From a virus, in IMG/VR virus record IMGVR_UViG_3300022848_001121, positions 1 through 31,323 of that record: a DNA stretch of 31,323 nt, one strand, 5' to 3'. Under the pieces are notes generated by a model. It ran no database searches. It saw only the letters and a list, made by a program, of their open reading frames with translations, and was not told where the DNA came from. A program made the translations under genes and the position numbers. This document shows, piece after piece, positions 1-29,211 of the stretch; position 1 is the stretch's first letter, and the number at the start of each line of letters is the position of its first letter.

Positions 1-1521
1 GGCCTGACGCTCAGTTGCAAGCTGTTTGCGATTGGCTCGGATACTGTCGTTGCCACAGCATCGGCAACTGAAAAGACCAACGATCTGAATCGGTACAGTG
101 TGGCTTATACCGACTTGGCCGCTGGTGCTTATCGGCTCAATGCGTTTGTTGGTGCGGTCGGTGGGTTTGCGAATGAGTTGTTTGATACCCTGGCCGCGAC
201 GGGTACTTATTATCCGCGATCTGAGACTGCACCGCTCGACGCAGCCGGAACACGCACAGCGATCGGTCTGGCGGCAGCAAACCTCGATACGCAATTGGCC
301 GACATACCAACCGTCTCGGAGTTTGATGCAAGGACATTGGCATCGGCTGATTACTTTGTGGTCGGTGACTACACCGCACCCGACAACGCAAGTATTACTG
401 CGATCCTTGCCTCCACTGACGAACTACAAACGAATCAAGGCAACTGGTTGACTGCTACGGGTTTCAGTACGCACTCAGCCGCCGATGTTGTCACCGCACT
501 CGGCACCGGCTCGACGCTGACCGATTGTGCAACTGCTGACGTTTCGGGACTCGCTACCGCCGCATCAATTGCAGGACTCAATGACTTTGACCCCGCAGTC
601 GATATAGTCGCCCGTGTCACGTTGACCGATACCACGACCGCCAATACGGACATGCGAGGCACAGACAGTGCGTTGCTTGCAGCAAACTACACTGCACCGG
701 ACAACGATAGCATCACAGAAATCCTACTCGACACCGGCACCACGATTCCAGGCACGATCACTACCGCACAGGGCACGCTGACGAAACTCGAAACGGCACT
801 CGAAGCTGACGGATCAAGTGGCTGGCAGTACACGACGCTGGCTCTGGAAAACGGTCCTGCCGATGGCGGCGGCGGTGGTGATGCGACACTCGCGAAGCAA
901 GAGGAAATCCTAACCGCAGTAGGCAATGTGGCGAATGTGTCTCTTACCGGACCCAATGTCGTCAACGTCAACGTCACCAACATTGCGGACGATGCGGCTA
1001 TCGAGAATGCCACGGTTCGCGTCTTCAAGGCCGGTTCGTCTGAATCGAAAACGACCGACAGCGAAGGAGACATCGAACCATTTGCACTCGCTTCTGCGAC
1101 TTGGACACTGGCAATCGACGCCGAGAACTTCGGGAGCTACGTTGATACCGCGTTCGTGGTGGGCGGTGACATCTCCGAGGAAGTGCAACTCACCGTCAGT
1201 TCAATCTCTCCACCGTCCGCTGCCGATAAGTCCAACGTCGGACTTCGTGTCATCACGCAGTTTGGCGTGCCTGTGAAGTTCCAGAACGTTCGCGTGGAAA
1301 TCTTCGAGAACGAATTCGGCGCGTCGAGCTACGTCGTCAATGCGGACGTTCCTTTGGCGACCGATGCAAGCGGGAACGTGCAGTTTGAGGTACTCAAGTC
1401 AACCGAGTTCACCGACGGAGCGGGCGTGTACCAAGTCACCGTCGGCACCGGACGAGACGCCAAGACGTTTAAGTTCGCGGCACCCTCGACGCCAACCTAT
1501 CAACTCACGCAGAAGATCTAG
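1..1521 (+). CDS. Modular fibre-like structural protein, 5' end cut by the window
   Basis: The reading frame is open from base 1 and lacks its start, so at least 506 residues are present. The N-terminal half is Ala/Thr/Asp-rich and carries a repeated block, YTAPDN-x-SI-x-x-IL, encoded near 367-408 and 685-726. A Gly run follows, then about 200 residues that read as two consecutive beta-sandwich units (around 955-1200 and 1240-1500) with the spacing of carboxypeptidase-regulatory/Ig-like domains: an 'ATVRVFKAG..ESKTTDSEGDI' type strand pair in the first and a 'VRVEIFENEF...TDASGNVQFEV' pair in the second. Such domains are common in phage fibre and surface-display proteins. It lies 3 nt before the head-tail adaptor gene, so it belongs to the late operon. 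A virion role is inferred; receptor binding is only a guess. Confidence 0.6.
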   Translation, partial: GLTLSCKLFAIGSDTVVATASATEKTNDLNRYSVAYTDLAAGAYRLNAFVGAVGGFANELFDTLAATGTYYPRSETAPLDAAGTRTAIGLAAANLDTQLADIPTVSEFDARTLASADYFVVGDYTAPDNASITAILASTDELQTNQGNWLTATGFSTHSAADVVTALGTGSTLTDCATADVSGLATAASIAGLNDFDPAVDIVARVTLTDTTTANTDMRGTDSALLAANYTAPDNDSITEILLDTGTTIPGTITTAQGTLTKLETALEADGSSGWQYTTLALENGPADGGGGGDATLAKQEEILTAVGNVANVSLTGPNVVNVNVTNIADDAAIENATVRVFKAGSSESKTTDSEGDIEPFALASATWTLAIDAENFGSYVDTAFVVGGDISEEVQLTVSSISPPSAADKSNVGLRVITQFGVPVKFQNVRVEIFENEFGASSYVVNADVPLATDASGNVQFEVLKSTEFTDGAGVYQVTVGTGRDAKTFKFAAPSTPTYQLTQKI

Positions 1522-1524
1522 GAT

Positions 1525-2673
1525 ATGAAAACGCTCTACGATCTATTCTCGCACGTCCTTGATACCGAGGACGCTCACGACGACCATGTGAATCGTCGCC
1601 GTGCGTTGCGTGCTGCCGTCTGGGGATCGGAACAGACACAAAGCAGGCACCAGTGGGCGAACTACACCGTGACCACCGTGGCGAGACTCAACGCACCACT
1701 TACCGTGTTGGCAACTGTCTCGGCTACCGGCCTCGTTACACTCGATGCGGCTGAGGACGCACTGCCGGCGTGGGTGCAAGACGCCAGTGTCCAATACAGT
1801 GACCACACCTTTGTTATCAGTCGACGAGTGTCCGATACGACGCTTCAGCTCGACGGGTGGGGTCTCGGTGCGATCGCCACCAACACCAGCATCCGAATTG
1901 TTGACGACCGATACGTTTTGCCCGATACGGTTCGCGAAATCTTCGAGGTGCGTGACGAAGACTCCGATATTGAACTTTACAGTGTCGGGCCAGAGCGATT
2001 TCGGCTGATGCAGCACACGCAAAACGGAACACCTAGCGATCCGATCGCGGTCACCGAGGTGCGCACGACGGGACCACTGGGCCAGCAAACCGAACTGCGA
2101 TTCGTACCCGCGCCGTCAAGTCAAACGGACATCGCCGTCTCCTATGTGCGTCGACCGCGCATCGCAAGTGCCCTCCACTCCTGCGGGAGCACGGCGATTG
2201 CAGGATCCACGGTGACGGTTTCCAGTTCGCTACCGTACGACCTGCTGTCTCCCGACGGTTTAATGCTTGTCGTCTCGACCACCGCAAGCGAGCCGGAACC
2301 GTCCTTTGGCTTTGGTGTTGATGAGCACGCTTCCCAGATCGGCGTGGTGCATCGTGTCAAGAGTCTCACCAGTCGCACAGAACTGGAACTCTTTGAGAGC
2401 GTCACGGCGGTCACCGGCAAAGCGGCAATCCTGACGCACGAACTCGACTTTCCCGAGGTTGCCTACAACGCGGCACAGCGATACGCCGAGGCCGAGTTTC
2501 GACGTGTCGGTCGTGGGGATGTGGGTGAGTATTGGCAAACGATCCAAATGGCAGATCGAGAATTGCGACTGGCCATGGAACAGGAATCCAAATTCACCCG
2601 ACAACCGAGCGTCCCTCACTCGCGACCGGCGACCTACAATTACCCTGAGAATGTTTCGCCGGGGGTCTCCTGA
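1525..2673 (+). CDS. Putative head-tail adaptor / connector protein
   Basis: 382 residues. The ATG follows the previous stop by 3 nt, with a GA-rich stretch just upstream. An N-terminal helical part (residues 1-35) leads into an extended beta-rich middle. The end is strongly helical (about 312-355: a 'YNAAQRYAEAEFRRVGRGDVGEYW' type segment, then 'MADRELRLAMEQE'). A beta core followed by a long C-terminal helix rich in Ala/Arg/Glu is typical of phage adaptor proteins that sit beneath the portal. Its place two genes before the tail tube gene agrees with that. Its stop overlaps the next start by one base (TGATG), which suggests translational coupling. The family assignment is by pattern and position only; it could also be a tail-completion or fibre-like protein. 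Confidence 0.45.
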   Translation: MKTLYDLFSHVLDTEDAHDDHVNRRRALRAAVWGSEQTQSRHQWANYTVTTVARLNAPLTVLATVSATGLVTLDAAEDALPAWVQDASVQYSDHTFVISRRVSDTTLQLDGWGLGAIATNTSIRIVDDRYVLPDTVREIFEVRDEDSDIELYSVGPERFRLMQHTQNGTPSDPIAVTEVRTTGPLGQQTELRFVPAPSSQTDIAVSYVRRPRIASALHSCGSTAIAGSTVTVSSSLPYDLLSPDGLMLVVSTTASEPEPSFGFGVDEHASQIGVVHRVKSLTSRTELELFESVTAVTGKAAILTHELDFPEVAYNAAQRYAEAEFRRVGRGDVGEYWQTIQMADRELRLAMEQESKFTRQPSVPHSRPATYNYPENVSPGVS

Positions 2674-3137
2674 TGCCGGCCAACACTCTGCCCACGTACG
2701 ACGACTGGACGATCGCCAAGAAGCATCGCGAGATCATCCTCGAGTTGCTGCCATCTGGAATGAGGGCGCCGATCCTGCAACGATCGATCCCTGGATTAAT
2801 CAACGGACGGTTCACCAAAGACTTCAAGGCGGGCACGTACCTGATGCCACTGAAAAGCCAAATCGAGGATACGTTTTCCGATCGCCACGATGTCGCCCGC
2901 AGTACCATGCTCGTCGTCGCCGAGGGAGAAACCAGCATCCAATCCAACAGAACCCCGAACTCGATGGTCTTCATGGAACGAATCAGGAATCGTTTCGCTA
3001 GCCGACGGATCATGAACATCGTCGGTGAACTTTACTCGACGCACACCTCTCCCGAATACGACGTGGACGATACAATGTCGCGTCGACTCGAGATTATCCC
3101 CATTGTCCTAACCACAACCATCCGCGAGATTCGCTAA
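2673..3137 (+). CDS. Putative tail completion/terminator protein
   Basis: 154 residues, starting on the ATG that overlaps the upstream stop. The sequence alternates short helices and strands and ends in a hydrophobic strand (residues 140-154, 'IIPIVLTTTIREIR'). That ending and the length fit the small head-closure and tail-terminator proteins found between connector and tail tube in long-tailed phages. No diagnostic motif is visible and no catalytic residues are expected. The gene order (adaptor, this protein, tail tube) is the main argument, so the call is an inference from context. Confidence 0.4.
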   Translation: MPANTLPTYDDWTIAKKHREIILELLPSGMRAPILQRSIPGLINGRFTKDFKAGTYLMPLKSQIEDTFSDRHDVARSTMLVVAEGETSIQSNRTPNSMVFMERIRNRFASRRIMNIVGELYSTHTSPEYDVDDTMSRRLEIIPIVLTTTIREIR

Positions 3138-3239
3138 ACAACCGACCACCCCAGGCGACCCTTTGAGATCGCCCAATCACACAATGCTTCATCACGCCCG
3201 CAAGGCGTCGTGGACAACGTACTTACGGGGATGGCAGTC

Positions 3240-4205
3240 ATGGCATGTAATTTTTGCGGCAGTTTTGGGATCAACACGAAGTTCGGTTTCGCTCCCAGCG
3301 GCGCTAACGTGGACGCGACGCTCGTGGCGGCCACCACTCGTGAAGAAATCCTCGTCGAGAACCTGAACTACAGCGATAGTGTGGTCGGTGGACGCGGCAT
3401 CACCGGATGGATGGACGCTTCCTCGCTGAAACTACGCAACGGCCAAAGGCTTGTCTCCGGTGGGTTGATTATGGAAATCGGCCCGAACCAGATCGCACCC
3501 TGGCTCAGCGCCCTCGTTGGCAACAGCGCGGCGGCGGTTGCGAACGTGTCAACGACCAAGGAGAAGTGGGACGCGATTCCGTTCGACCTCTCGGTTGAAC
3601 GCGACAACGTCGATCACGGCTACCGCTACTGCGTTGTCAACCGCGCCGTCATTCGAGGGCGATCAAACCCAAGAGACCAACAAGGCCAAATCGTCCAGAT
3701 GGCATTGAGTTTCCTGGGCGTCGAAGAGGAAGACATTACGTTCCCCGGCGCGTTGGCATTGCCGAGCGACGCGCAGTACCCATGGCTCCTCGGTGACGCG
3801 AGCCTAGATTACGGTGGTGAAACCTGCTCGCTGATCTCGTTCGACATCACAATCGAAAACATGCTCAAGCCTCTGTTCCGCAACCGACTGACCCCTGGTT
3901 GCTTTCGATCGCTCGGCCGAAAAATCACGATGGACTTTGCCGTTCCCTACGGGGCCGATTCGTACGCGGGATACATCGACGACAACTCGGCGGACGCGGC
4001 AGCCGCACTCACGTTCGCGTCGACCAACCTGCCCGCTGCCGTCTCGGATTACTCAACGATCTTCACGTTCCCCCAGACGCGTCGGATTGCCCACAACTAC
4101 ACGACCGCGAGCAAGGACGAAATTCCGTTGCAAATGAAACTCCAGGCTTACATCAAGGGGTCTTCGCCAGCAATGACGATTGCGAACGTGATCTCGGCCG
4201 CGTAA
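3240..4205 (+). CDS. Major tail tube protein
   Basis: 321 residues from the ATG at 3240, which has GGGG about 9 nt upstream; the frame also allows GTG at 3210 or ATG at 3231. The protein is beta-rich, begins with a short Cys pair (MACNFCG), and has alternating strand patterns around 'LISFDITIENMLKPLF', 'ITMDFAVPYGAD' and a final 'IPLQMKLQAYIKG' strand. This is the usual layout of tail tube subunits, where a central 'slxidi.n..kp......G......G.r..tl.f..' segment is followed by a long insertion and a closing strand. It shows the window contains a long-tailed (sipho- or myo-type) phage. No sheath gene is seen next to it, which favours a siphovirus-like tail. Confidence 0.6.
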   Translation: MACNFCGSFGINTKFGFAPSGANVDATLVAATTREEILVENLNYSDSVVGGRGITGWMDASSLKLRNGQRLVSGGLIMEIGPNQIAPWLSALVGNSAAAVANVSTTKEKWDAIPFDLSVERDNVDHGYRYCVVNRAVIRGRSNPRDQQGQIVQMALSFLGVEEEDITFPGALALPSDAQYPWLLGDASLDYGGETCSLISFDITIENMLKPLFRNRLTPGCFRSLGRKITMDFAVPYGADSYAGYIDDNSADAAAALTFASTNLPAAVSDYSTIFTFPQTRRIAHNYTTASKDEIPLQMKLQAYIKGSSPAMTIANVISAA

Positions 4206-4208
4206 TCC

Positions 4209-5663
4209 ATGGCATTCCAGCGGCGAAACGATGCCCCCGCCGATCAACGGCGGGAGGACGCAACCAAGTTCATGCAGGAGCTTACGGGCATTCCTGCGCG
4301 ATCCATCGGTTCGCAGATTTCCCCCATGCCTGCGGTTCCGCAGCCATCGAGCCCGCTTGCCTCGGTCGGACAGCCACCTACCGAGAATTCGCTGGAGGCT
4401 ATCCCCGCAGCCGCAGCCGTGTCAACGATCGACGTGTTCGCGGGTATGGAAGATCCCGGCGATCCACCGATCACCGCATTCGATGAGTCGCCTCCTGACA
4501 CAAACGAAACTGCGATAGAGCAGGTCGAATTGACGCTGGAGGACTCGGTCGCTACGGAAGCGGAGACCGCACCTGAGCCTTTGCCTGACTCTTCGATCGA
4601 CACAGAGCCAGCGTCCGAACCCGCGATTGAGCAATTGCCCGAAACTGAGACGGCTCCCGAAGCGGAGATCCCGCCCGTTCCAGTCGCAGAGATGCAGCCG
4701 ATGGTTGCGCCTGACGTGTCACATTCCGATAGGTCGCCCGATTTCGTGACGCCGGACCCTGTCGAGCCACAGCAACTTGATTCGCCGGATGAACCGATCG
4801 TGTCAGCGGAACCACCGACCGCCGACATTCCATCGACGCCACAGTCCAACCAAGGCGACGACCTGCCGTTCTGGGCTCGCTATTCCGCACCCGTTGACGT
4901 GGAGGTTATTCAGGCCGGCGGCAATCCAATGATGGCCCGGCGATCGGACTTGACGCACGAACAGAAGATGGAAATCGCCGAGCGAAATACATCCGAACGG
5001 CAACAACTCCGCGAGGAACGCCAGGAGCGATACGATCAGCGACAACCCGAACGAGACAGCCCGCCGTCGAACGCAACGAGCGATAGCACCGAAACGATCC
5101 AAGCACCCCTGTTGTTCTCCGATCCGCCTGCGAGTGATTCAGCACCAACGGAACCGACGCAACAGAGCGAGCCTGACAACGATCCGCCTGAGCAGGCACC
5201 GCAATCGTCTCAGACCGACGAGGTGGCCGCTGATAGTGATACCGCATCGCCACCGAACATTGCTGCCAATGTGCCGCTCACTGCTGAGAATTTTGAACTG
5301 ATTCGCCAGATGGTGATGGAAGCCACAGGGCGACCACAGTCAGGGCAGCGGACGATCCCGGTCTCGCCCCAACCGTCCACGCTCAACCCGCAGGTCGCCA
5401 ATGCAAGTCCAGTTGCATTCGATCCCGAACCCACGTCGCAGATCGACACATCGCAAGACGCTCAGTACACCGAGCCCTTGGCGATGGCAAATGATTTCAT
5501 CGACCGACACAATGAAGTCATCCGAATGATTATCGACGCCTTGTCCCGACTGACCGCTGGCTACACAGTCCATCGAGCGCGACTCTCAACGATCCTCGAT
5601 CGACTTGACTCCGAATCGCAATCGAACGAATACGGTGAAGGAGACTCGACATGGATGGGGTAA
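4209..5663 (+). CDS. Pro/Glu/Ser/Thr-rich low-complexity protein in the tail-chaperone/tape-measure slot
   Basis: 484 residues, starting 3 nt after the tail tube stop. Residues 1-30 form a charged helix, about 35-390 are disordered and rich in P, E, S, T, D and A with few aromatics, and roughly 420-470 return to a helix ('FIDRHNEVIRMIIDALSRL'). A short charged helical patch, 'EQKMEIAERNTSERQQLREERQERY', sits near 255-280. This slot normally holds tail assembly chaperones followed by a tape measure protein. The protein looks like neither: chaperones are short and tape measures are long and helical. It may be a disordered assembly factor with binding helices at both ends. No family is recognised. 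Confidence 0.55.
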   Translation: MAFQRRNDAPADQRREDATKFMQELTGIPARSIGSQISPMPAVPQPSSPLASVGQPPTENSLEAIPAAAAVSTIDVFAGMEDPGDPPITAFDESPPDTNETAIEQVELTLEDSVATEAETAPEPLPDSSIDTEPASEPAIEQLPETETAPEAEIPPVPVAEMQPMVAPDVSHSDRSPDFVTPDPVEPQQLDSPDEPIVSAEPPTADIPSTPQSNQGDDLPFWARYSAPVDVEVIQAGGNPMMARRSDLTHEQKMEIAERNTSERQQLREERQERYDQRQPERDSPPSNATSDSTETIQAPLLFSDPPASDSAPTEPTQQSEPDNDPPEQAPQSSQTDEVAADSDTASPPNIAANVPLTAENFELIRQMVMEATGRPQSGQRTIPVSPQPSTLNPQVANASPVAFDPEPTSQIDTSQDAQYTEPLAMANDFIDRHNEVIRMIIDALSRLTAGYTVHRARLSTILDRLDSESQSNEYGEGDSTWMG

Positions 5664-6406
5664 CGTTCTACCACGGCGACTTCACGCATCGACCTTGCGA
5701 GGTGTACCCGAAACGGTTCAGTGTCCAAAACCTTCGTGGTGCCAATGGTATCACCTGGGCCAAGAAGTACACGCTGGAGATTGGTGGTGATCTCGTCGGT
5801 GCCGATGGAACCGAACTCGATGCGAACGAGGTGGTGGCCCGCATCGCCCTCCTCGACGCGGCCTACGCGGACGAGTACCAAAACTGCGGGTTCACCATGC
5901 AGGACGGCGCGACTACCGTTCACACGTTACTGACAAACGACGCCGCGAACCTAACTGGCAACCGCATCGTCTACCGTTCATGGGAGCACCTTCACCCAGG
6001 CGAGCTTGCCAACACCCGGTCTTTTGCTGTTCGCTTTGAAGCCCTGTTTCGACACGACAACGGCCCCGTGTTTCAATACACCGAGCGAACGCGCAAGTTT
6101 GGAACCGGCGGGCCAATGTGGAAATTGTACGAAGCCGCCAACGGAACAATCCAAAAAGTATTCGTCACCCCCAAAACCAAGGTGGTTCACATCACTGCGG
6201 GCGAACTGGTCAGTGGCGTCCCGTTGCCGCCAACCGACCCGCTCTGGCCCCTGGAAGAACAAGGGTGGCGGCGAGAGATTGAGATCGGAACGCCGGTCGA
6301 CCATGGTCATCCGACCGGCAAGTTCACGCACTACCGTACCCGCTGGCAATACCACTTTGAGAGACTGGGTCCAAGCGCTCTGACCTCGACACCGAGGTAC
6401 GCGTAA
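5651..6406 (+). CDS. Putative tail-tip/baseplate protein
   Basis: 251 residues. The start overlaps the previous gene by 13 nt and has a good AAGGAG ribosome site 7 nt upstream, so this start is well supported. The sequence is beta-rich with many aromatics and conserved-looking turns ('FYHGDFTH', 'SFAVRFEALF', 'YRTRWQYHFERLG'). It sits immediately before the hub-like gene, with a TAATG one-base overlap. In long-tailed phages this position is used for distal-tail or baseplate subunits. Function is inferred from position; no motif names it. Confidence 0.45.
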   Translation: MDGVTFYHGDFTHRPCEVYPKRFSVQNLRGANGITWAKKYTLEIGGDLVGADGTELDANEVVARIALLDAAYADEYQNCGFTMQDGATTVHTLLTNDAANLTGNRIVYRSWEHLHPGELANTRSFAVRFEALFRHDNGPVFQYTERTRKFGTGGPMWKLYEAANGTIQKVFVTPKTKVVHITAGELVSGVPLPPTDPLWPLEEQGWRREIEIGTPVDHGHPTGKFTHYRTRWQYHFERLGPSALTSTPRYA

Positions 6407-7788: not shown

Positions 7789-8801
7789 TGACAATGGGCG
7801 AGGGAACCGTATGGATGGTCGAGGCGAAGACGGGAGTCGGAGCAAGGGCCGCGTCGCAGGGCGAAGTCTTCCAGGCACACGCGTTGCTATTGGCCGGCAG
7901 TGATCCCGCGAGCGTATCCAAGAACTCTAAGTGGTTCGACGTGGTCAATATGTCGATCAAAAGGGTCTGCCCCGGCGATCGAATGCCGGTTGCCAAAACA
8001 CAACAAGGCCACTACATCACCGTCGCCATGCAAGTCGGTCGTGCCATGTTCGCGAAGTTCGCCAAGAACGGCGAGTCGTGGGACGTGGTCGACTACTGGC
8101 AAGGCGAAGACCCATCTATCTGCGACGAGCCAACGGTGGTGTTCGATTTCGATTCTAGTTGCCTTCAAGATGGTGCTGAAGTCGTGGCAAGCTACGACCC
8201 CGAGAACGATCAATACCGAGCCATCGCAACAGAATCGGCGATGCTTGGCCCGGCTTCGGATGTTACCGTCGTCGATGGTGCCGATCCTGGCATCCACTGG
8301 TCGACCGGCAACTGCGGTCAATTGGATTACGCCGTCCGAACAATCAAAGCATTCCGTTGCGGGGAAGACGAGGAAGCCGATCCTGATCCGAATTTGATCG
8401 AGAAAACCGCTCCATGGAACGGGACCATTGGCACGGTACTCGTCGGCGCTTCGATTACAACCAACGGTGCGGGGAATCCATGTTTGACATACACGACTGC
8501 CTACTCAATGATCTGCTCGGTGTCACAAGGGACACCAGATCCAATCGAGATCTGTGGACATCCTTGCTGCGATAAAGTAGTCTACTACAATCGCTACGCT
8601 TCCCCAGGAGCGATCCCAGCCGAGGCCACTCATGTCGGCCAATACACCGAAGGCTACGTGACTGATGAAGTAGCCGAACAATGCTTCCTGCCTGCCGATG
8701 CACCGGCTGGCTGGACTCAAGGATTCGCTGAGGAACTTGGTGCTGGGTTCACTCGAAACGCACTTCCCCCTGAATGCTGCCCACCCGAAGAAGGAGTTTA
8801 G
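7788..8801 (+). CDS. Cysteine-containing tail/structural protein of unknown family
   Basis: 337 residues. The ATG overlaps the upstream stop by one base; a second in-frame ATG lies two codons in. The N-terminal 60 residues look alpha/beta ('GEGTVWMVEAKTGVGAR'). The rest is beta-rich with scattered Cys, including CGHPCC around 255-260 and a terminal ECCPPEE. That last motif resembles the Cys linkers repeated in the next protein, so the two probably share a structural assembly. The GC content falls in the last 250 bases, where the low-GC block of the next gene begins. I do not recognise a family. Confidence 0.5.
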   Translation: MTMGEGTVWMVEAKTGVGARAASQGEVFQAHALLLAGSDPASVSKNSKWFDVVNMSIKRVCPGDRMPVAKTQQGHYITVAMQVGRAMFAKFAKNGESWDVVDYWQGEDPSICDEPTVVFDFDSSCLQDGAEVVASYDPENDQYRAIATESAMLGPASDVTVVDGADPGIHWSTGNCGQLDYAVRTIKAFRCGEDEEADPDPNLIEKTAPWNGTIGTVLVGASITTNGAGNPCLTYTTAYSMICSVSQGTPDPIEICGHPCCDKVVYYNRYASPGAIPAEATHVGQYTEGYVTDEVAEQCFLPADAPAGWTQGFAEELGAGFTRNALPPECCPPEEGV

Positions 8802-11153
8802 ATGACCAGTCTAGTTCCCCAGTTCCGTAACGGCATTCCCTTGTTCGTTAAGGGCAAGCTGTCTTTTTGCGAGGAGGATTGTGATTGCCAGCCACCTAAT
8901 CCGTGCGAGCCATGTTGTGGATTCATGTTCTGGCAAGACAACAAGCCAGGCGAACCTGAACCGGTAGTATGGGGCGAGTTCAATGCCAACGGCGATCTAT
9001 TCGAGACATTGACATACCCTGGTATATCAGACGCAACCGTCACAGAGACGATTACAATTGTCGTGCCAACTAAATTCAGTCGGTATATTTGCGAGGGGGA
9101 GGATATCGAAATTGAACTGACCTACTCAACCGACTACATCCTTCCTAACATCGGTGCCGACAAGTATTTTCCTGACGTGGTTCCGGTTATCCAGTGGGAT
9201 CGTTCGTGGACGGCAAATTGCAATGTAATGCCCAACGGAGGTTGCGACCCTGGCGTCTCGATCGATGTAAACAAAAAGGGATTGATGGAGAACTGGGCTA
9301 ACGATGTTGAGGAGATGTGGCTTCAGTTGACCTACACTGCTTGCTACCATGAGTACGAAAACGATCCGGCAGAACTGGTAGTAGGAAGCAGAAACTACGG
9401 CACCGCTCGGAAGTTGCGAGTCGTGCCATGCACGCCAGAAGTGACTTGCTGTCCTCATCCTTACGAGTGCGCTGATTGCTGTCTCTATTTGACGAGTTCT
9501 AAAATCCTCGCGGGCATTCGCGGTTTGTCTGTCAGAGAGGTCATGAGCGATCCGGCCCTTGATATCAAGGAGGGCTTGGACAACATGGTAGATGAAGAGA
9601 GTATTATCTACTACAAAGAGGATCCAACAGGCGCGAGGATGTACGTGATTGCCACACCGGCTGGAGGAACAAAAAGGACAGTATGTCCGCTTGTTTCTGG
9701 GTTAGATGATCCAACGAATGCGGGCAATTTCATTGAACTGGAAATTATCTACATCCCGTCGAGTCTTAATCCACGGATCGTGTGGAATCAAGAAATGTGC
9801 ATTAGCTTTCACCCTGACGTGTGGGAGTTAGCTGGAAGCTCCGACTCTGGGTGCGATGCGTTTGAAACAGTCTGTGTACCAACTGATCCCGATGATGTCG
9901 ACGTACCTGGGTATAGCTGGACAGCCACTCTTTTACTGAAGTGCTATCCGTTCGGCGGTGCGCCACTAGACATAGCCAGAATGGCAGACATTGTCGTACA
10001 AATATCCGACCAAGACACTAACCCAGACGGTCAGCCGTACACGTTTTTTGAGGGCATGGGAATCACGATTCCATTCGGATACTGCGGCGCAAACGACTAC
10101 GAATGCTGCCCTGACATAATCCCTGAATGCGAAGATTGTTGCATGATATTTGATTCAGCAGCCGGTCATATCTATGATTTGTCCGTTGATGGTGAAATAA
10201 ATGCCACCATGCCTGTTTGTGATGATACCGGAGAATTGATTGGCTCACTAGGAATCTCTATTTTCGGGGACAAGCTATGCAAAGGTGCTGGCATGATTGT
10301 CAGTGTCGATAATGCCGGCGGCATGGAAATCGAAGTGTGCATTGAAGTCACTGGAGATTTCGAGGGGTTTGCTGATGAAGCACCGGAAGCTGACTCATTC
10401 CCTTCAATCAGCAAATTCTGCTGGGATCCCGCACCCGCAGTGATGAGTGTTACGAGAGTGGCTAAATGCAAGGATTTTTATGCGGGGGCTACGGTAGTAA
10501 TTACGGCGGGTAATTCGCTAGCCACTTTTGAGTGGAAAGGATGCCCCGAGACAAGCTGCTGCTGCGAGGAATACGTTCCCTGCTGCGGCGGAAATTGCTA
10601 TGTTCCTGATGCAACCAACATTACACAACTGGAACTCATTTCTGACCTCGACGATGGCCGTCAAGAAATATACGATCAGAACGGTCCTAGTTTTTGGATC
10701 CATCCAGAATCAACGATTGACGTGTCTTTGTGGAACTGTCCAGAAAAACTTGTGGATAAGCCGCGATGTGATTGGTATGTGCCGATCGAACAGCGGGCAG
10801 GAAGTGATACTGTATTTTTAACGGGCGTGTGGATTAATGGTATATTGGCGGCAGACTTAATCGTGGGCGCAGGAGCCAGCACAACACCACGGAACCCCCG
10901 ATGGCAATTGCTAGGTCACCTCCTGAACGCACCGCCCGGTGACGAAGATTGCTATGGAGAGATCACTGTGACCTCCCGAACCAATTCGCCTCCGGGAGAT
11001 AGCGTTGCCACTTTTACATCTCAAGGCCCGTATCCATGGCCTACCGGAATGACGTGCTTTGATGATTGGGTCGTTTGGGAAGATGACCTTTTTGGCCCGC
11101 GTGTCTTGTTGTCGGAATTCCCTGACGGTTTTTTTGATGGGCTGGCGATATGA
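8802..11153 (+). CDS. Large cysteine-rich modular tail protein with four Cys-linker repeats
   Basis: 783 residues. The ATG directly follows the preceding stop and has AAGGAG 5 nt upstream. Four cysteine-dense linkers occur at residues 27-39, 216-227, 435-447 and 586-599. All fit a loose pattern C-C/x-P-x(2-4)-P/Y-x-C-x-x-C-C (the last is degenerate). Between them lie beta-rich modules of about 130-210 residues, rich in Asp, Tyr and Trp, with their own scattered Cys. The repeats suggest disulfide or metal-stabilised joints in an extended fibre. Sampled GC is near 40% in places (for example 10141-10200), against about 60% in adjacent late genes, so the gene may be a transferred host-range module. 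Receptor binding is inference. Confidence 0.6.
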   Translation: MTSLVPQFRNGIPLFVKGKLSFCEEDCDCQPPNPCEPCCGFMFWQDNKPGEPEPVVWGEFNANGDLFETLTYPGISDATVTETITIVVPTKFSRYICEGEDIEIELTYSTDYILPNIGADKYFPDVVPVIQWDRSWTANCNVMPNGGCDPGVSIDVNKKGLMENWANDVEEMWLQLTYTACYHEYENDPAELVVGSRNYGTARKLRVVPCTPEVTCCPHPYECADCCLYLTSSKILAGIRGLSVREVMSDPALDIKEGLDNMVDEESIIYYKEDPTGARMYVIATPAGGTKRTVCPLVSGLDDPTNAGNFIELEIIYIPSSLNPRIVWNQEMCISFHPDVWELAGSSDSGCDAFETVCVPTDPDDVDVPGYSWTATLLLKCYPFGGAPLDIARMADIVVQISDQDTNPDGQPYTFFEGMGITIPFGYCGANDYECCPDIIPECEDCCMIFDSAAGHIYDLSVDGEINATMPVCDDTGELIGSLGISIFGDKLCKGAGMIVSVDNAGGMEIEVCIEVTGDFEGFADEAPEADSFPSISKFCWDPAPAVMSVTRVAKCKDFYAGATVVITAGNSLATFEWKGCPETSCCCEEYVPCCGGNCYVPDATNITQLELISDLDDGRQEIYDQNGPSFWIHPESTIDVSLWNCPEKLVDKPRCDWYVPIEQRAGSDTVFLTGVWINGILAADLIVGAGASTTPRNPRWQLLGHLLNAPPGDEDCYGEITVTSRTNSPPGDSVATFTSQGPYPWPTGMTCFDDWVVWEDDLFGPRVLLSEFPDGFFDGLAI

Positions 11154-12307
11154 ATCCTTACATCGAAATGCGGCGAGCTGGCTACCTAATCACACGTCAT
11201 TCCGACGATCAGATCCTCGTTCGACCAACGCCAGACGCCGAATGGCTTGAGTTTGCTAAAACACATAAACCCGAGATACTTGCATTCCTTCCCGCTAAGA
11301 AGGAAGACGAGGAGCGTGTTGAAGCCCAAGTCGCTAAGGCAATCAGCAAACCACTGGGCGGCGTCGGGACAGAACTGAAAAAGCTAATCCCCGATTGGTT
11401 TGAGAAGTCAGGCTGTGGTTGCAACGACTACGCACGAAAGCTCGATCGCAAGGGAGTTGATTGGTGCGACGAACACAGGGCCGAAATCGTTGAACACTTG
11501 GTCAAACAGGCCACCCAGACATTCCTTAAAGTCCTCGGTAAAGCATTCAACAAACTCGGCGCATCGGCGTTGCTTGCCACAGCGATTAGTCGATCGCGAC
11601 TGCGGGACATCAAGGCTAACGGACTGCACCCTGCAAGCGACGCTCTCACGTTGGTCACGTCGCTGTCGACTACCTGCATTCGACGGCAATTGACATGCTT
11701 GCGAACGTGGCAATACATGGGATTCCCGATCATTGCACAGCAAGTCGATCAAGAAGAAATCGACCAACTCGCTCCCCTGTTCCCCGACGTGACGTTCAAG
11801 ATCGCGGAGGCAGTCCACGAAAACAGGGTCACAATTCAATCACTGGCACAGGAAGCGAAAGAACAGCCCGTGCTAATCCTCAACGCTGACTTGGAAATTT
11901 ATGCCGAGCAATCAATGTTCATTGAGCATTGGGCCGGTGGAACGGATTGCCGCATTGGCTTTCGCTGGAACTACGACGACATCCAATCTTGCACCCAAGA
12001 GCCCTGGGGTATTGATGCGGTGAGAATCACTCCGGCTATGGTGCCCCATATCGTCGAACCTACACTGCGACTCGGTTTCCCCGGTTGGGATTGGTGGTTG
12101 CCAACTCACTTGGAAAAAGCGGGGTTCCGTTTGTCCCGAGTGAACACTCCTGAACTCTTTCACCAGAACCATCCGACAACATGGGAGCCTCGCAGGAGCC
12201 TAGACGAACAAGCAAGGATCGAAGCTGACTATGGGATCACAGTTGACGAGATGAGAGAGATGGCATCAAAGGACCGAAGCGGATGGAAGTGCAGTGTTAC
12301 TTTTTGA
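11150..12307 (+). CDS. Glycosyltransferase-like protein with N-terminal docking-like domain and Cys cluster
   Basis: 385 residues; ATGA overlap with the fibre-like gene. Residues 5-48 ('AGYLITRHSDDQILVRPTPD' then 'HKPEILAFLP') resemble the short TubC-type N-terminal docking fold. A basic helix follows, then a cluster CGC (89-91) and WC (105-106) in a segment 'CNDYARKLDRKG' that is seen beside glycosyltransferase domains in phage and planctomycete proteins. Residues about 155-360 have the layout of a nucleotide-sugar transferase: a Rossmann-like start, LILNADLEIY at 242-251 in the usual DxD position, then 'WGIDAVRI' and GFPGWDWWLP (309-318), and 'NTPELFHQNHPTTW'. The exact DxD is replaced by NAD-L-E. 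It overlaps the sulfotransferase gene downstream by 14 nt, implying a shared task. Confidence 0.55.
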   Translation: MNPYIEMRRAGYLITRHSDDQILVRPTPDAEWLEFAKTHKPEILAFLPAKKEDEERVEAQVAKAISKPLGGVGTELKKLIPDWFEKSGCGCNDYARKLDRKGVDWCDEHRAEIVEHLVKQATQTFLKVLGKAFNKLGASALLATAISRSRLRDIKANGLHPASDALTLVTSLSTTCIRRQLTCLRTWQYMGFPIIAQQVDQEEIDQLAPLFPDVTFKIAEAVHENRVTIQSLAQEAKEQPVLILNADLEIYAEQSMFIEHWAGGTDCRIGFRWNYDDIQSCTQEPWGIDAVRITPAMVPHIVEPTLRLGFPGWDWWLPTHLEKAGFRLSRVNTPELFHQNHPTTWEPRRSLDEQARIEADYGITVDEMREMASKDRSGWKCSVTF

Positions 12308-12908
12308 CCATTACCCGAAAGCCGCCGGAACGACGATCCGAACGTGGTTGCTCGAAAACTTCACCGACGCTTCCGTGGTATTCAACATCGACGACCTTGC
12401 ACCGGGATTCACTAGCGGTGACTTCCGATCGCTTCCGAGGCACGAACGACACCGATTGAAATTGGTGATGGGACATGATGCCGGTGGACTCAGGAAAGAA
12501 ATGCAGGAAGGCACCGTTTGCGTGACAGTCATCCGCGAACCAATCGGCCGACTTCTCAGTTTCTACCACTACGCCAAACAAACGCCGTTGATGGGAAACT
12601 TGCACGTTGATGCAAATTACATGGACGTGACTTCGTATGCCGTCAAGCATGGCCTGACTCACGCCCTTGGGAAATACTACGGCAGCGTGGATCAAGTGCA
12701 GGCCAAATACGAGATAGTGGGTGACTCGGCAGACTTGCCTGAGTTTTGTAAACGGGTGCAAGATCGTATCTCGCTGCCCGTTGGGTTCACCGGCGAGCGA
12801 CTGAACACGACACCGCACCCGCAAGCAGCATCCTCAGAATTACAGAACCTATGCAAGTCGGATGTCGATTTCTACCAGGAATTGATGGGCCGCGTCGTCA
12901 ATGCCTGA
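12294..12908 (+). CDS. PAPS-dependent sulfotransferase-like protein (Sulfotransfer_2 type)
   Basis: 204 residues from a GTG start that overlaps the upstream gene by 14 nt. The 5'-phosphosulfate binding loop is clear at residues 7-15 (YPKAAGTTI). The 3'-phosphate binding segment is at 77-93 (VTVIREPIGRLLSFYHY, with Arg81 and Ser89 in the expected places). A GHDAGG motif at 60-65 matches the position of the catalytic His region in the 2-O-sulfotransferase-like family. The second half has 'VGDSADLPEFCKRV' and 'TGERLNTTPHP', again as in that family. Enzymes of this type move sulfate from PAPS to sugar hydroxyls. It follows a glycosyltransferase-like gene inside the late operon. The substrate is unknown: tail glycan, capsid glycan or host polysaccharide. 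Confidence 0.75.
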   Translation: MLLFDHYPKAAGTTIRTWLLENFTDASVVFNIDDLAPGFTSGDFRSLPRHERHRLKLVMGHDAGGLRKEMQEGTVCVTVIREPIGRLLSFYHYAKQTPLMGNLHVDANYMDVTSYAVKHGLTHALGKYYGSVDQVQAKYEIVGDSADLPEFCKRVQDRISLPVGFTGERLNTTPHPQAASSELQNLCKSDVDFYQELMGRVVNA

Positions 12909-14545: not shown

Positions 14546-14753
14546 CTGCAAAGGCAATGATCGCCACACCGGTAGCAATAAACACTGCCGGTAGAGTTCG
14601 ATTATGCAGTTGCACGATAGCGAGCGAAGATCGATCCATGTTTGTGACGTACGAAGGACCGCTTAACGTCCTGCCGTCTTGCCGACAAGTGAAAGCGGCA
14701 TAGAAAAAAACTAAGCCTGCTACCACCAAGAGAGCCCTCTTTACCATGTCCAT
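14520..14753 (-). CDS. Small two-helix membrane protein, antisense to the late operon
   Basis: 77 residues. The minus-strand start at 14753 has AGGGAG with a 7-nt spacer, a strong ribosome site. Residues 5-22 (RALLVVAGLVFFYAAF) and 53-69 (LPAVFIATGVAIIAFAA) are convincing membrane helices, joined by a polar loop. The gene fills the 200-bp gap in the late operon, overlaps the 3' end of the preceding gene by 26 nt, and its start overlaps head-to-head with the next gene's ATG at 14746. It could be a lysogenic-conversion, superinfection-exclusion or holin-like protein. The opposite orientation argues for expression separate from late genes. Confidence 0.55.
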   Translation of the reverse strand: MDMVKRALLVVAGLVFFYAAFTCRQDGRTLSGPSYVTNMDRSSLAIVQLHNRTLPAVFIATGVAIIAFAAKGSASDS

Positions 14754-17700
14754 CTACGATCTCCCTGTTGCCACTGCAACACGCCCCGGCCGTCTTCGTG
14801 GCCGATCGATCTATGACAACGCCGGGTACGCTGCGCCGCCGATCGGTTTGGGCAATCTGCCCTCGCTTGCCGCCCCCACCATGCGAGTCGCGGGAGGGGC
14901 AGCATCGATTTACGATACACCAAACCTGCCACCGATGCAGCCAGTTCCCGGTGCCGACCAGGCTGGACCCGCTGCGATGGGACCGCCAGTGGATCCCGAC
15001 GATCCGTCTCTGTTCGCTCAAGCCCGCGACGTGGGACTCGGCGGATTGTCCATGCTTGGCAACTTACTCGACATTCCCGGTTCCATGGTTCGGGACGCTC
15101 TGACGTGGATCCCAGGCGGCATCGCGGCCCGCAATCCGTTAGACCAATTGCTCTCGCCGCTGTCCGACCAGAATCGCACGACGGGCGAGGAACTACTTCG
15201 CCTGGATGAGTGGCAACCGGATTCGTGGTACGGATCGGTCGGTAAGTTCGGGGCTGGAATGGCTGCGGAAATTGCATTGGACCCCCTCACTTACATAACG
15301 CTCGGTGGAACCGCGCTGACGAAAACGGGTGGTCAACTGGCATCGCGGGCGGGAATGATGGGCGATGCCGCAAACGTCGCTAACCGCAAACTCGCAGCCC
15401 AAGCTGCCGAGGCCGGGACCGACGCGGTGACCGTCGGCGCGAGAGAAGCACGGCAACTGGTCAATCCCCGCGAACTGGCGGCAAACCTCGATGAAGCCTC
15501 GCGTCGCAAGTTCCGTGACGGAACGACCGGGGACATCCTCGACGATGCTGTCGAAACCGTTGCGCACACAGACGGCCACCCCATCGGCGTCGAAGAACTC
15601 GTGCGGTCCTACAACGGCATGAACGCTCGCGCCATCAAAGCCGGCGAGATGCCCGCTGCCAGTTTGTCCGACGACATGATCGATGCGTTCCGCACGGGAA
15701 CCGCGTCGACCGATGACCTGCTCGCTCAATCGAACATCCCGGCTGATTACCTCGACGAAGCGATCGGTGGAAACTTCCGGTTCAAGGTTCCGTTTGCGAA
15801 CAAGCCGATCAACATCCCGTTCACCGACAGGGCCATCCCCGACGAATTCGTTTTCAACGACCTACGGTTGCCGATCCCTGGAAAAGCCCGCGAACTTGGC
15901 GGGTTGGGTGCGAGAGCAATTGGTGACCTTCCGATCCCGAAAACCGACAAGCGTATCCAAGACCTGATCCCTGATTTTGCGAGAGACCTGCCCGGCATGG
16001 CCGCTGACGGGCGCATCGAAGGGCGAACGATTGCGCGTGCGATGGACAAGACCGCCGATGCGGTGATGAATAACCGTCCAATGCTGACGGTGTCTTCGAT
16101 GTTTGACCGAGTGGGTCGCGAAGCCAAGCACAAACTTTCCCGTGCCGCTGCCCGTGAATCGGCTCAACGTGGCGAAGAGATGGCTCGTGTTGTGCGAGAA
16201 GAAGCTGCGGGACCAATGGCTGATGCTGACAAGAAAATGCAAGCCTACAGCCGAACCGAGGGCGTCACACAACAAGACGTACTGGACACTCAGTTCGATA
16301 TTTTGGATCGCATGGAGGGAGCCTTGACCGACGATCAACTTAGTCCCGTTGCTGCTCAGTTCCAGCCTGCGATGGACTTCTTCACCAACGCCTTCCGCAC
16401 GCAAGCCGATCAAGCAGAGGCGTTCGGCCAAAACCAACAACGGTTGCGTGAAGGCATCTCGTATGAAGTCCCCAAGGTCAACCCTGACGGAACCGAGGTT
16501 TTAGGCAAAGACGGAAAGCCCGAAATCGAAAAGGTTGTTCTGCAAAGTCCCATCGAGTATGTGCCTCGTAACCGGCAAAACGAATCGGGAGTAATGCGCC
16601 GCGTTGGCAATGCCATGAGCAAATCGGGACGGATGATTCAACCCGACGGATTCACCAAGGGCCGCGACGAGGCGATGCGACACCTTCGGACTTCGCAAAT
16701 TCAACGCATGTCCCTTGACAAAAAGTTCGCCGGTCGCGCTGACCGTGGAGTCCTGGGTGGAAAGCGATCGCGAGAACTCGCGGCAGGAAACACCGGGCAG
16801 TTTCCCGACACGGGCGTCATGGGAAGCTCGCTGCTTGAACGCGATACACCCGAGTGGGAACAAGCGTACTCCGCGTTCAAGAAAGCCTACCCGCCCGCAA
16901 AAGACTACATGCGACTGGCCGAACGTGGAGAACTCAAGGACATCAACGGGAACCTGGTCGAGTGGTCACCTGCGCTTGACGAAGCCCTCGACGACAAGCA
17001 CCGGCAATTGTTCAGCAAGATCACACAGCTCGATCGCGCTCAGGTCGAGCGTGGTGTTCCGATGTTCGACACCAACGTCTTCCAGGCTGGATTGAACCGA
17101 CTCGAGTCTGGCTACCAATCCGCTGCCCAGGAACTCGGAACTCGAAAACTGCTATCCACGTCCGCACGATTGGCGAAACCACGTCCAGTTGCCGAACAGT
17201 CGGCCGCTCCCACAAGCAAACTTGCCTCCACCTCCGGTCGCAACATCGATTCAATGAACCTGCTTGGCGAGAACGGTGAGAACCTTGAACGTCTCGGACT
17301 CAATCACGATCGCGGAAAACAGAAACTACTGGGCGAATTGGCCGAACAGGGGCACGACATCGACGGCATGGCTGAATCGATCATGGCACCGAAGCGTGAT
17401 AAAATTGCAACTGAGTTGACCGAACTGATCGCCAGGAACTCGGACACGCCCATTGCTGACCTGCAAGGACCGATTCGTGAGGCACTGGACAATGACCCCG
17501 ATTCACTGCTGGCGGCGATCACCACCGACGAAGCGATGCAGGAGCGGATCGGGAAGTTGGTTGACAAGTACACCAACGTCGAGGCCAAACCCGATGACAT
17601 CTTGAAGAAATTCGAGATCGACGCGGACTTAGGCAACGACATGATGGCCGTCAACACTCGGTTTTCCACGCCCGAGGAAATCAAAGCGTTCACCGAAGCG

Positions 17701-19242
17701 TTAGACGCATTCACCAATATGTTCAAGACCAACGTCACCGCCGCGTTCCCCTCGTTCCATACGCGGAACTTGTTCTCGGCCATGATGCAAAACGCACTCA
17801 ACGGCGTGACCGACACCTCCGCTACGCGATTGCGAGATCGATTCTTCAAGCCGTACTCGGATGCTCGAAAGGTAATCAATGGCGAGGTTCTTGCGGACGC
17901 GAATCAACTACCAGGAATGGAAAAACTCTCACCCGAGGAAGCCACCGAAAAGTTCCGAGATGAAATCTTTGCCCAGAAAATCATTGATGCCACGGGCGAC
18001 CACAACGACATCCCCGGCCTACCATCGGGTGGCGCGATCGATGCTCGGCCCGGTCAATCGCGTGGTCGTGCGGCGAACTTGCCTGAAAGCAAAGGGTGGG
18101 ACTTGGTTGAAAAGATTCCATTTGCTAGGAACTTTGCCCGCAACGTTCGCGAGGCGTCATTGCCACCCAAAAAAACCCGATGGCGGGACACGTTCAACCC
18201 GCTCGAAAGTTCGGCCGTTCGTGGCACACGCGAAGGCACTGTGAAGTACGGCGGTGAGCGAATCGGTCGCGCCCTCGGTAACGAGATTGAATCCACGGTT
18301 CGGATCGCCCCGTACATTGCCTTTCGTCGACAAGGTTTCACTGCATCAGAAGCCGCCAAAAAAGTTAAATCACTTCAGGTGGACTACAACGACCTAACCA
18401 GAACAGAACGCAAAGTGATGCGGCGTGCTGCCCCTTTTTATTCGTTCAATAAAGGAGCCACCAAATACCTCGCGGGTGAATTATCCACTCGCCCCGGCGG
18501 CCCTGTGGCGATGACGATCAAAGCCGCCGAGAACGCATCGGGCAACGACCCCGGCACGCCCGAGTACATTCGCGACGGACTCAACATTCCGCTTGGTGGT
18601 GCGGCAGAGGACGGATCACGGAACTACCTGACTGGTGCCGGCCTCATGCACGAGCCTCCTGCTCAACTGCTTGGTAATAACATCCAAGAGACATTCTACA
18701 ACGCAGCCAGCATGGCGCATCCGATCCCCAAAGCGTTGATCGAATACATCACCGACGAGTCCCTGTTCCTGCGGGACGGCAAGGGAGGCGGACGCGACCT
18801 GGACGACATCGACCCGCCCGTTGGCGGCACACTCCGTAATATCGGCCAATTCACGGGACTACTGGACAAGGAACGCCGTTCCCCCATTGACCTGCCGATC
18901 CCATTCGAGAAAGAGTTTGAACTGGCTGTCGCGAATTCGCCCGCTGCCCGATACCTGTCTCAGATTCGCAAGGCGACGGACAATCGAAAGAACCCTCTCG
19001 AAAAGCTGTTAAACGGCCTAACTGGATTCAATGTCGCCACGGTCGAACCGAATGACCGCGATGCGGTCCTGCGAGAACAACTGGAGCAACTTCTGCGAGA
19101 CATGGGCGGTCGAACCTTCAGCCAAGCGTACATGCCCGATACGACACTCGCTGAAATGGGAATGTCGCAGCAAGACCAAGTCGCGAAGATCAAGGAAGCC
19201 CTCCGTCAGATCAACGCACGACGACGAAACAGCAGCGATTGA
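14746..19242 (+). CDS. 1498-residue virion-associated protein, candidate internal/ejection protein
   Basis: ATG at 14746, with AGAGAG about 12 nt upstream. The N-terminal region repeats the motif SIYD (near residues 2, 22 and 53) within Pro/Gly-rich linkers. Residues about 80-180 contain a hydrophobic, turn-rich segment ('GLSMLGNLLDIPGSMVRDAL', 'AAEIALDPLTYITLGG'). The centre is a very long helical region. Two late segments match patterns common in large phage virion proteins: 'FPSFHTRNLFSAMMQNALNG' near 1001, and 'LTRTERKVMRRAAPFYSFNKG' near 1218, followed by a 'TRPGGP' turn. These recur in large proteins thought to be carried in the head or tail. It is by far the longest gene and closes the late operon. 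A tape-measure role is possible but its place after the fibre genes is unusual. Confidence 0.55.
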   Translation: MSIYDLPVATATRPGRLRGRSIYDNAGYAAPPIGLGNLPSLAAPTMRVAGGAASIYDTPNLPPMQPVPGADQAGPAAMGPPVDPDDPSLFAQARDVGLGGLSMLGNLLDIPGSMVRDALTWIPGGIAARNPLDQLLSPLSDQNRTTGEELLRLDEWQPDSWYGSVGKFGAGMAAEIALDPLTYITLGGTALTKTGGQLASRAGMMGDAANVANRKLAAQAAEAGTDAVTVGAREARQLVNPRELAANLDEASRRKFRDGTTGDILDDAVETVAHTDGHPIGVEELVRSYNGMNARAIKAGEMPAASLSDDMIDAFRTGTASTDDLLAQSNIPADYLDEAIGGNFRFKVPFANKPINIPFTDRAIPDEFVFNDLRLPIPGKARELGGLGARAIGDLPIPKTDKRIQDLIPDFARDLPGMAADGRIEGRTIARAMDKTADAVMNNRPMLTVSSMFDRVGREAKHKLSRAAARESAQRGEEMARVVREEAAGPMADADKKMQAYSRTEGVTQQDVLDTQFDILDRMEGALTDDQLSPVAAQFQPAMDFFTNAFRTQADQAEAFGQNQQRLREGISYEVPKVNPDGTEVLGKDGKPEIEKVVLQSPIEYVPRNRQNESGVMRRVGNAMSKSGRMIQPDGFTKGRDEAMRHLRTSQIQRMSLDKKFAGRADRGVLGGKRSRELAAGNTGQFPDTGVMGSSLLERDTPEWEQAYSAFKKAYPPAKDYMRLAERGELKDINGNLVEWSPALDEALDDKHRQLFSKITQLDRAQVERGVPMFDTNVFQAGLNRLESGYQSAAQELGTRKLLSTSARLAKPRPVAEQSAAPTSKLASTSGRNIDSMNLLGENGENLERLGLNHDRGKQKLLGELAEQGHDIDGMAESIMAPKRDKIATELTELIARNSDTPIADLQGPIREALDNDPDSLLAAITTDEAMQERIGKLVDKYTNVEAKPDDILKKFEIDADLGNDMMAVNTRFSTPEEIKAFTEALDAFTNMFKTNVTAAFPSFHTRNLFSAMMQNALNGVTDTSATRLRDRFFKPYSDARKVINGEVLADANQLPGMEKLSPEEATEKFRDEIFAQKIIDATGDHNDIPGLPSGGAIDARPGQSRGRAANLPESKGWDLVEKIPFARNFARNVREASLPPKKTRWRDTFNPLESSAVRGTREGTVKYGGERIGRALGNEIESTVRIAPYIAFRRQGFTASEAAKKVKSLQVDYNDLTRTERKVMRRAAPFYSFNKGATKYLAGELSTRPGGPVAMTIKAAENASGNDPGTPEYIRDGLNIPLGGAAEDGSRNYLTGAGLMHEPPAQLLGNNIQETFYNAASMAHPIPKALIEYITDESLFLRDGKGGGRDLDDIDPPVGGTLRNIGQFTGLLDKERRSPIDLPIPFEKEFELAVANSPAARYLSQIRKATDNRKNPLEKLLNGLTGFNVATVEPNDRDAVLREQLEQLLRDMGGRTFSQAYMPDTTLAEMGMSQQDQVAKIKEALRQINARRRNSSD

Positions 19243-20659: not shown

Positions 20660-21454
20660 TTACACGAAACACATGCCGAGCGTGCATTGCTGCACCTTTT
20701 CTGCCGATTCGTCGTAGTCAATATCCGCTTCGGCTAGAGGCACTCGACTGTGATGCAAGAAAACACCGCCTTGCTCGTCCGCTTCGCGAACTTCGCTGTC
20801 CGTTTCAATGGCTTTCTGCCATTGCTCGGGGTAGTTGTCACGGATGTCACGCCATTCGGCGTTGCGCTTGTGCGGGCACATCCAGCAAGACGACTGCTTA
20901 GGCAACGGCCAACCAAACTCTTTAATGATCGTTAAACATGAGTGAGTGTTTAGCATCAAATCGACCAACGGACAAACCGTTGTCCATCGACCTTCGGTCT
21001 TGTGATGCAAGCCCTTCCATCGCTTCTTTTCTTCGATTCCAAAGCCTAGCCAACGCGTTCCGCCCTTGATTCCTTTGGCCCGCAAGTGTCGATCAACGAC
21101 ACGTTTCTTCCATTCGTTACTGCAATATGTTTTCAACTTTCCGGTCTGTGTGAACACAGGGAGCAACAGATCACCGTTGCCGGAATACATGTCGACCGTG
21201 GCTAGATCGTGGCTTGCCACTTCGACAGGACATCCGAGTTCGGTCATCATCGGTTGAGTGTACTTTTCGAGGTATTCCCATGTCGTCGGATTTTCTCGGC
21301 TGGTGTCTGCCATTACGACAACATCAGGCTTCGGCAAAACGCCTTTGGCTATCATGATGCACATCGCAACGGTTTGGCGACCTCCACCGTAGTTGAAGAC
21401 CAGAGAACAATTTGTTGCTGCGGATTTGCCGATTAAGTTTATTGGTTTGGTCAT
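20660..21454 (-). CDS. PAPS-reductase-like / PP-loop ATPase family protein
   Basis: 264 residues from the ATG at 21454; a longer start at 21526 would overlap the methyltransferase gene. The PP-loop appears as NYGGGRQT (residues 21-28) instead of the usual SGGKDS. It is followed by the strand DVVVMADTSRENPTTWEYL (44-62). Cysteines at 111 (YCSNEWKKR), 200 and 203 (SCWMCPHKRNAEWR) and a C-terminal CTLGMC could hold an iron-sulfur or zinc site. Relatives adenylate substrates for sulfate reduction, tRNA thiolation or DNA phosphorothioation (DndC). Its neighbour is a methyltransferase, so nucleic-acid modification is the more likely role. True PAPS reduction is possible but unsupported. Confidence 0.65.
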   Translation of the reverse strand: MTKPINLIGKSAATNCSLVFNYGGGRQTVAMCIMIAKGVLPKPDVVVMADTSRENPTTWEYLEKYTQPMMTELGCPVEVASHDLATVDMYSGNGDLLLPVFTQTGKLKTYCSNEWKKRVVDRHLRAKGIKGGTRWLGFGIEEKKRWKGLHHKTEGRWTTVCPLVDLMLNTHSCLTIIKEFGWPLPKQSSCWMCPHKRNAEWRDIRDNYPEQWQKAIETDSEVREADEQGGVFLHHSRVPLAEADIDYDESAEKVQQCTLGMCFV

Positions 21455-21498
21455 AGTTTTTTCTCGCGATGGCGGGACAATTCGAGCGTTACCACGAC

Positions 21499-29126: not shown

Positions 29127-29211
29127 TCGAGGCGATCGGAATCGAACCGACGCACGCCACCTTTCCGCAAACGCTTCTTAAATGGCCGCTCTACCAGTGA
29201 GCTACGCCTCG
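29127..29211 (-). tRNA. tRNA-like gene with a 21-nt anticodon loop
   Basis: An 85-nt cloverleaf: acceptor CGAGGCG/CGCCUCG (7 perfect pairs, discriminator A), D-arm GCUC/GAGC with loop ACUGGUA, anticodon stem GCCAU/GUGGC (5 pairs, last one U-G), variable region GUGC, T-arm GUCGG/CCGAU with loop UUCGAUU. Apart from the anticodon loop it is a normal 71-nt class I tRNA. The loop has 21 nt (29161-29181) where 7 are expected, an excess of 14. The anticodon cannot be assigned: reading from U33 gives AAG, and deleting the first 14 after UU gives GAA. CCA is not encoded. It might be an intron-bearing tRNA, a decoy or a decayed gene. Confidence 0.65.

Follow-up and report, generated by a model that had tools for sequence, protein, structure and literature searches.

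What would a glycosyltransferase (GT) gene and a sulfotransferase (ST) gene do side by side among the tail genes of a phage, and on which acceptor would their products act? This question was raised by a virus record of 31,323 bases, which was analyzed over its whole length and is referred to here as the window. A first-pass annotation, made from the DNA letters, had proposed that the pair builds a sulfated glycan on the virion or sulfates the host envelope late in infection. It had linked a sulfated tail to planctomycetes such as Rhodopirellula as putative hosts, on which such a tail could aid adhesion or help evade recognition.

Gene layout

As the first-pass annotation had described, two overlapping genes follow the upstream late gene on the same strand. 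The first (11150-12307) encodes 385 aa and starts with ATG, while the second (12294-12908) encodes 204 aa and starts with GTG; the two share 14 nt, which implies coupled translation. The start of the first gene overlaps, in turn, the stop of the upstream gene 8802-11153 within an ATGA. The features of the locus are collected in Table 1.

The placement of the pair in a late tail operon is supported by the surrounding genes. Upstream, 3210-4205 matches a PHROG minor tail protein, terminase- and portal-like ORFs (read from sequence) lie upstream in a 25 kb relative, and a related phage, L098, carries a GT in the same slot. Given this gene order, late expression of the pair would be expected.

A relative (G001) that is 99.5% identical overall across the shared 14 kb runs approximately 11 kb further upstream, so the window probably covers only part of the phage genome. 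In G001 (L011, ~237-3097 of the reversed contig), a terminase-like ORF, as read from its sequence, is apparently split by a segment that resembles an intein and contains sequence similar to homing endonucleases.

Table 1. Positions of genes, domains and motifs at the GT/ST locus of the window.
Feature	Position	Strand	Evidence
Adhesin-like Cys-rich late gene, 783 aa, hypervariable in its 3' part; candidate acceptor or partner	8802..11153	+	
Fusion protein of 385 aa with an N-terminal part, the Cys-rich GTELK domain and a C-terminal GT-A domain	11150..12307	+	
Cys-rich GTELKK..CxCNxxAxxxDxxGxxWC domain, residues 68-150; candidate docking module	11351..11599	+	motif scan, phmmer
GT-A glycosyltransferase domain, residues 160-385	11627..12304	+	viral homologues, model, Foldseek
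N-A-D, residues 245-247, invariant NxD; likely DxD-type position	11882..11890	+	alignment with viral homologues
GFPGWDWWLP, invariant G-x-P-x-W-D-x-W-x-P signature	12074..12102	+	alignment with viral homologues
HQNH, invariant H-x-x-H (H338 and H341)	12161..12172	+	alignment with viral homologues
PAPS-type sulfotransferase, 204 aa, family-2-like	12294..12908	+	
5'-phosphosulfate-binding loop YPKAAGTTI; H6, K9 and G12 invariant	12312..12338	+	alignment with annotated relatives
His61 of GHD motif, invariant; candidate catalytic base by position	12474..12476	+	alignment with annotated relatives
3'-phosphate-binding motif VIREPIGRLLSFYHY; T78, R81, P83, R86 and S89 invariant	12528..12572	+	alignment with annotated relatives

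A putative PAPS-type sulfotransferase

Profile comparisons support reading the product of 12294-12908 as a divergent PAPS-type sulfotransferase, nearest to the Sulfotransfer_2 branch. The Pfam model itself, with which the first-pass annotation had proposed to check the protein, fell short: Sulfotransfer_2 (PF03567) scored 13.8 bits (library E 0.063) against a curated cut-off of 22, which is why we speak of a divergent member. Run against this record alone, the model reached 14.7 bits (E 3.8e-4), and PHROG_3347 (galactose-3-O-sulfotransferase) gave a weak match (0.022). Profiles of relatives, however, did place the protein. The one built from four annotated relatives, with the window ST left out, gave 69.4 bits, and the one from five viral sulfotransferases alone gave 57.5 bits, compared to a best of 10.2 bits among 4,000 shuffled copies, the null used for the profiles of both enzymes. 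Each of these relatives-only profiles matched essentially one ORF of the window. When the window ST was included, the profile matched heparan sulfate 6-O- and 2-O-sulfotransferases (1e-14 and 1e-12, respectively), a result that is only partly independent, as the other members of this mixed profile contribute most to it.

Both PAPS-binding loops named at first pass are present. Alignment with the four annotated genes, to which the ST is 19-24% identical, showed that the 5'-phosphosulfate-binding (PSB) loop and the 3'-phosphate motif are kept, as are the GH motif and an Asn late in the sequence; the first loop follows the pattern P-K-x-x-G-T (YPKAAGTT, residues 7-14) and the 3'-phosphate motif follows R-x-P-x-x-R-x-x-S at invariant positions. 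The structure model was weak (pLDDT 56), and its top Foldseek matches were sulfotransferases (best E 1.1e-3). By tblastn, the ST matched over its full length a gene with the annotation 'sulfotransferase family 2' on a plasmid of Alloyangia pacifica (E 2e-6). Next to that gene lie gmd and genes that encode a glycosyltransferase and a mannose-1-phosphate guanylyltransferase. No membrane segment was found in the ST or the GT, the highest 19-residue hydropathy values of the two proteins being 1.16 and 0.85.

A GT-A domain outside the family libraries

The preceding gene had been called glycosyltransferase-like as a whole. This description suits its C-terminal portion, since a GT-A domain at approximately residues 160-385 is supported by the data, but the complete protein has several parts. 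Pfam, PHROG and NCBIfam returned no significant match to 11150-12307, and the domain was placed through its viral relatives and its fold rather than through family libraries.

Viral contigs were scanned for stretches of the type PWWDYWLP, which we take to be a bacterial GT-A-like signature. All 14 stretches obtained aligned with the window GT domain (22-52 bits), and the alignment with viral homologues contained 16 invariant columns; because the scan had selected on the motif, it is the alignment beyond the motif that counts as real evidence. A profile of 11 viral relatives, from which the window GT was excluded, scored 76.8 bits for 11150-12307 alone (best of 4,000 shuffles, 6.5).

Structure prediction, the other check suggested at first pass, bore out the assignment. 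The domain was modeled with a pLDDT of 80.7 and a pTM of 0.82, and the model gave 250 PDB matches at E<=0.001 in Foldseek, with glycosyltransferases leading. WrtF, a Leptospira GT (6p61) and chondroitin synthase were among the matches, as were RmlA-type nucleotidyltransferases, which share the GT-A fold; in a viral structure library, the top matches were named glycosyltransferases. At the likely DxD-type position, only NxD (N245, D247) was invariant. A resemblance of residues 1-47 of the same protein (P0001) to TubC-type docking domains was set aside; Pfam showed no such domain there.

The Cys-rich GTELK domain

A Cys-spacing scan of viral contigs returned 84 stretches, nearly all of them true members by eye, in more than 70 contigs. 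They have in common the pattern GTELKK ... CxCN ... G..WC ... I..WL.EEA, and many matched by phmmer at 1e-9 to 1e-17, values that refer to a small database. Most proteins with this domain are 100-200 aa long; in other cases, L042 and L069 among them, a Cys-rich late protein ends with it, and in six other phage proteins it is fused to Pfam Glycos_transf_2. Wherever the context was readable, the GTELK slot follows tail genes (in L077, a tape measure protein precedes it), and GT genes come after the slot, three in L077 and one in L069. The three genes of the L077 locus (8660-12804), Glycos_transf_1, family 2/92 and sialyltransferase-like family 29, come directly after a Cys-rich gene and GTELK.

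The GTELK domain is a candidate docking part of the GT, and it offers a handle for finding phage decoration modules that family libraries have missed. Within the contig stretches around the other GTELK-domain loci, no sulfotransferase was found. To this extent the ST is as unusual as the first-pass annotation had held. Sulfotransferases have, however, been described in phages before, and a sulfotransferase-like gene lies near GTs in two further viral records.

The same slot and the same pair in other viruses

In L098, homologues of window 3210-4205 (37 bits) and 5651-6406 (61 bits) are followed by a 607-aa gene, an 863-aa Cys/Thr-rich gene and a 644-aa protein that combines a GT-like part with GTELK. 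The gene order is that of the window, while the enzyme in the slot differs; the N-terminus of the 644-aa protein was called GT-like from its sequence and its likeness to L051 and L071, both placed by Pfam. As this virus has a GT, and no sulfotransferase was detected in its record, the GT/ST pair is not obligatory. Homologues of 14746-19242 (72-87 bits) were present downstream of Cys-rich and GTELK genes in L042, L086 and L096.

Both enzyme classes do occur together elsewhere. The L111 record holds a GT of the window family together with GDP-fucose-synthase-like, sulfotransferase-like and FkbM-like genes, where the sulfotransferase-like match is weak (E 0.004-0.008) and the GDP-fucose-synthase- and FkbM-like genes were read from sequence only. 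G009 (116 kb) has two sulfotransferase-like genes. One is followed, after approximately 4 kb, by a protein that carries the Cys-rich domain and ends in a GT-like region without a Pfam match, and the other lies inside a large sugar-nucleotide gene cluster. Single-protein IMG/VR searches retrieved only two near-identical records as relatives, isolate phages gave no match to the GT, the ST, two neighboring genes or a viral relative of each enzyme, and nothing was found in two cellular-genome scans.

That slot enzymes differ between phages, and that the stretches around other Cys-rich-domain loci lack an ST, would suit two enzymes with separate substrates, in which the GT acts on a phage protein, the ST sulfates a different target (a tyrosine in a protein, a lipid or some small molecule), and an accessory-gene slot has made them neighbors. 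We consider this quite improbable, as the gene overlap points to coupled translation and both enzyme classes are also close together in L111 and in the bacterial glycan locus.

Variation among near-identical relatives

The upstream gene 8802-11153 is separated from its G001 counterpart by 43 nonsynonymous differences and a single synonymous one. Almost all of them fall within 10555-11093 (codons 585-764), and most affect the first or second position of a codon. Such a pattern is as expected of a diversified receptor-binding adhesin, and the segment looks like a product of targeted diversification. A search of the three fragment records for a diversity-generating retroelement returned no reverse transcriptase, template repeat or adenine-rich template.

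The second near-identical relative, G002 (L012, ~9240-9255), carries an in-frame deletion of 2,430 bp that corresponds to window 8877-11306. It fuses codons 1-25 of the Cys-rich gene with the GT gene from codon 53 on, and a short sequence is shared at the junction. G002 has thus lost the Cys-rich gene along with GT residues 1-52, and it keeps the GT domain and the ST. This is either a real variant or an assembly effect; provided that G002 represents a genuine and functional genome, 8802-11153 cannot be the sole acceptor, because the gene has been lost there and the enzymes have been kept. The GT gene of G001 has a 1-nt deletion (11383), which is either an artifact of sequencing or a null allele, and the GT of G002 differs from that of the window by 9 nonsynonymous differences and 1 synonymous difference, so that strong constraint on the GT is not visible.

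The two deletions and the weak constraint signal could be taken as marks of a decaying locus, in which enzymes acquired by chance have no present function. However, every residue that is invariant in the motifs of the two families is present in the window, and the G002 deletion leaves the GT in frame and the ST intact, which makes decay very unlikely.

Sulfate supply and DNA modification

The supply of PAPS is assumed to come from the host; a search of the three fragment records yielded no APS kinase. On the minus strand, 20660-22005 encodes a PAPS-reductase-like protein (PHROG_424, 2e-34; PADLOC SspD, 9e-11) and overlaps a DNA methyltransferase gene. It was dropped as a candidate sulfation partner because it has no PF01507 match and its match in the defense library is SspD.

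These two genes would rather be in keeping with a pair that hypermodifies phage DNA, by placing a sugar on a modified base and then a sulfate. Phage GTs can hypermodify DNA according to the passage of PMC12619734 that cites Pyle 2024, and modification of nucleotides or proteins by GT/ST has been suggested in PMC10829341. Nevertheless, no thymidylate-synthase-type enzyme was found in the three records, all of them fragments, and the pair sits in the tail operon, away from the DNA genes. We therefore give this reading very little weight.

Virion or host surface as the target

The other end of the window carries an integrase-like gene (30157-31323, below the Pfam cut-off). Approximately 1 kb from it lies a tRNA (29127-29211, minus strand; Rfam 48 bits, ARAGORN silent), a possible attachment-site remnant.

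The integrase-like gene suggests a temperate phage, as in seroconverting phages, and would agree with a pair that remodels the host surface late in infection or in lysogeny, where a sulfated envelope sugar blocks superinfection or re-adsorption of progeny. So would the closest annotated ST relative, located in a bacterial surface-polysaccharide locus, and the heparan-sulfate-type STs, which act on polysaccharides. Gtr seroconversion systems (GtrA/GtrB/GtrC-type), however, consist of a membrane-embedded flippase and a bactoprenol glucosyltransferase, whereas the window GT and ST are without a membrane segment. Since both enzymes look soluble, their genes are inside the tail operon and not beside the integrase, and one domain of the GT recurs in Cys-rich late proteins, modification of the host surface appears somewhat unlikely, and decoration of the virion is somewhat likelier.

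The explanation that we tentatively prefer, with slightly less than an even chance of being right, is a translationally coupled late module for glycan decoration, in which the GT acts before the ST and a phage surface protein is the likeliest acceptor. The GT-A enzyme would move a host-made nucleotide sugar onto the acceptor in the infected cell, and the ST would then use host PAPS to sulfate that sugar or a nearby one, so that both may act in sequence on one glycan. The acceptor would most probably be a co-produced phage surface protein, with the product of 8802-11153 or another tail protein as first candidates, and the GTELK domain would dock the GT. A more specific version is unlikely in its full detail: the sulfated glycan would be built on the phage's own hypervariable tail adhesin by a GTELK-docked GT, at a slot that swaps enzymes between phages and to which sulfation has been added here.

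Comparison with known systems

The window GT has the same fold as known GT-A enzymes such as the fucosyltransferase WrtF, the Leptospira protein 6p61 and viral family-2 GTs. It differs from them in forming its own sequence family, with the G-x-P-x-W-D-x-W-x-P signature and H-x-x-H, and no Pfam or PHROG model places the protein. The ST aligns over its full length with PF03567 family 2, in which heparan sulfate 2-O-/6-O-sulfotransferases have been solved, including the motifs and the late Asn described above; in contrast to that family, it is short (only 204 aa), its identity to the aligned relatives is low, and its score lies below the Pfam cut-off.

Phage sulfotransferases have been described in OM43 phage (PF13469 genes; PMC10580990) and in glacier-ice phages (PMC8290583), and are also represented by PHROG_3347. 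The window ST is of the same superfamily, but it overlaps a GT gene in a tail operon and belongs to another Pfam branch than the OM43 phage genes. The function of phage sulfotransferases was stated to be unclear in PMC10580990, and a small GT and ST module beside a fast-evolving adhesin-like gene makes it directly testable.

In mycobacteriophages, phage GTs act on structural proteins of the virion (Freeman 2023, as cited in passages of PMC12619734 and PMC11600133). Those passages mention no sulfotransferase, and a glycan on the virion of the present phage is predicted from its genes. Phage sulfotransferases and virion glycosylation are each already known, and the GT/ST combination in the window is a variant of these.
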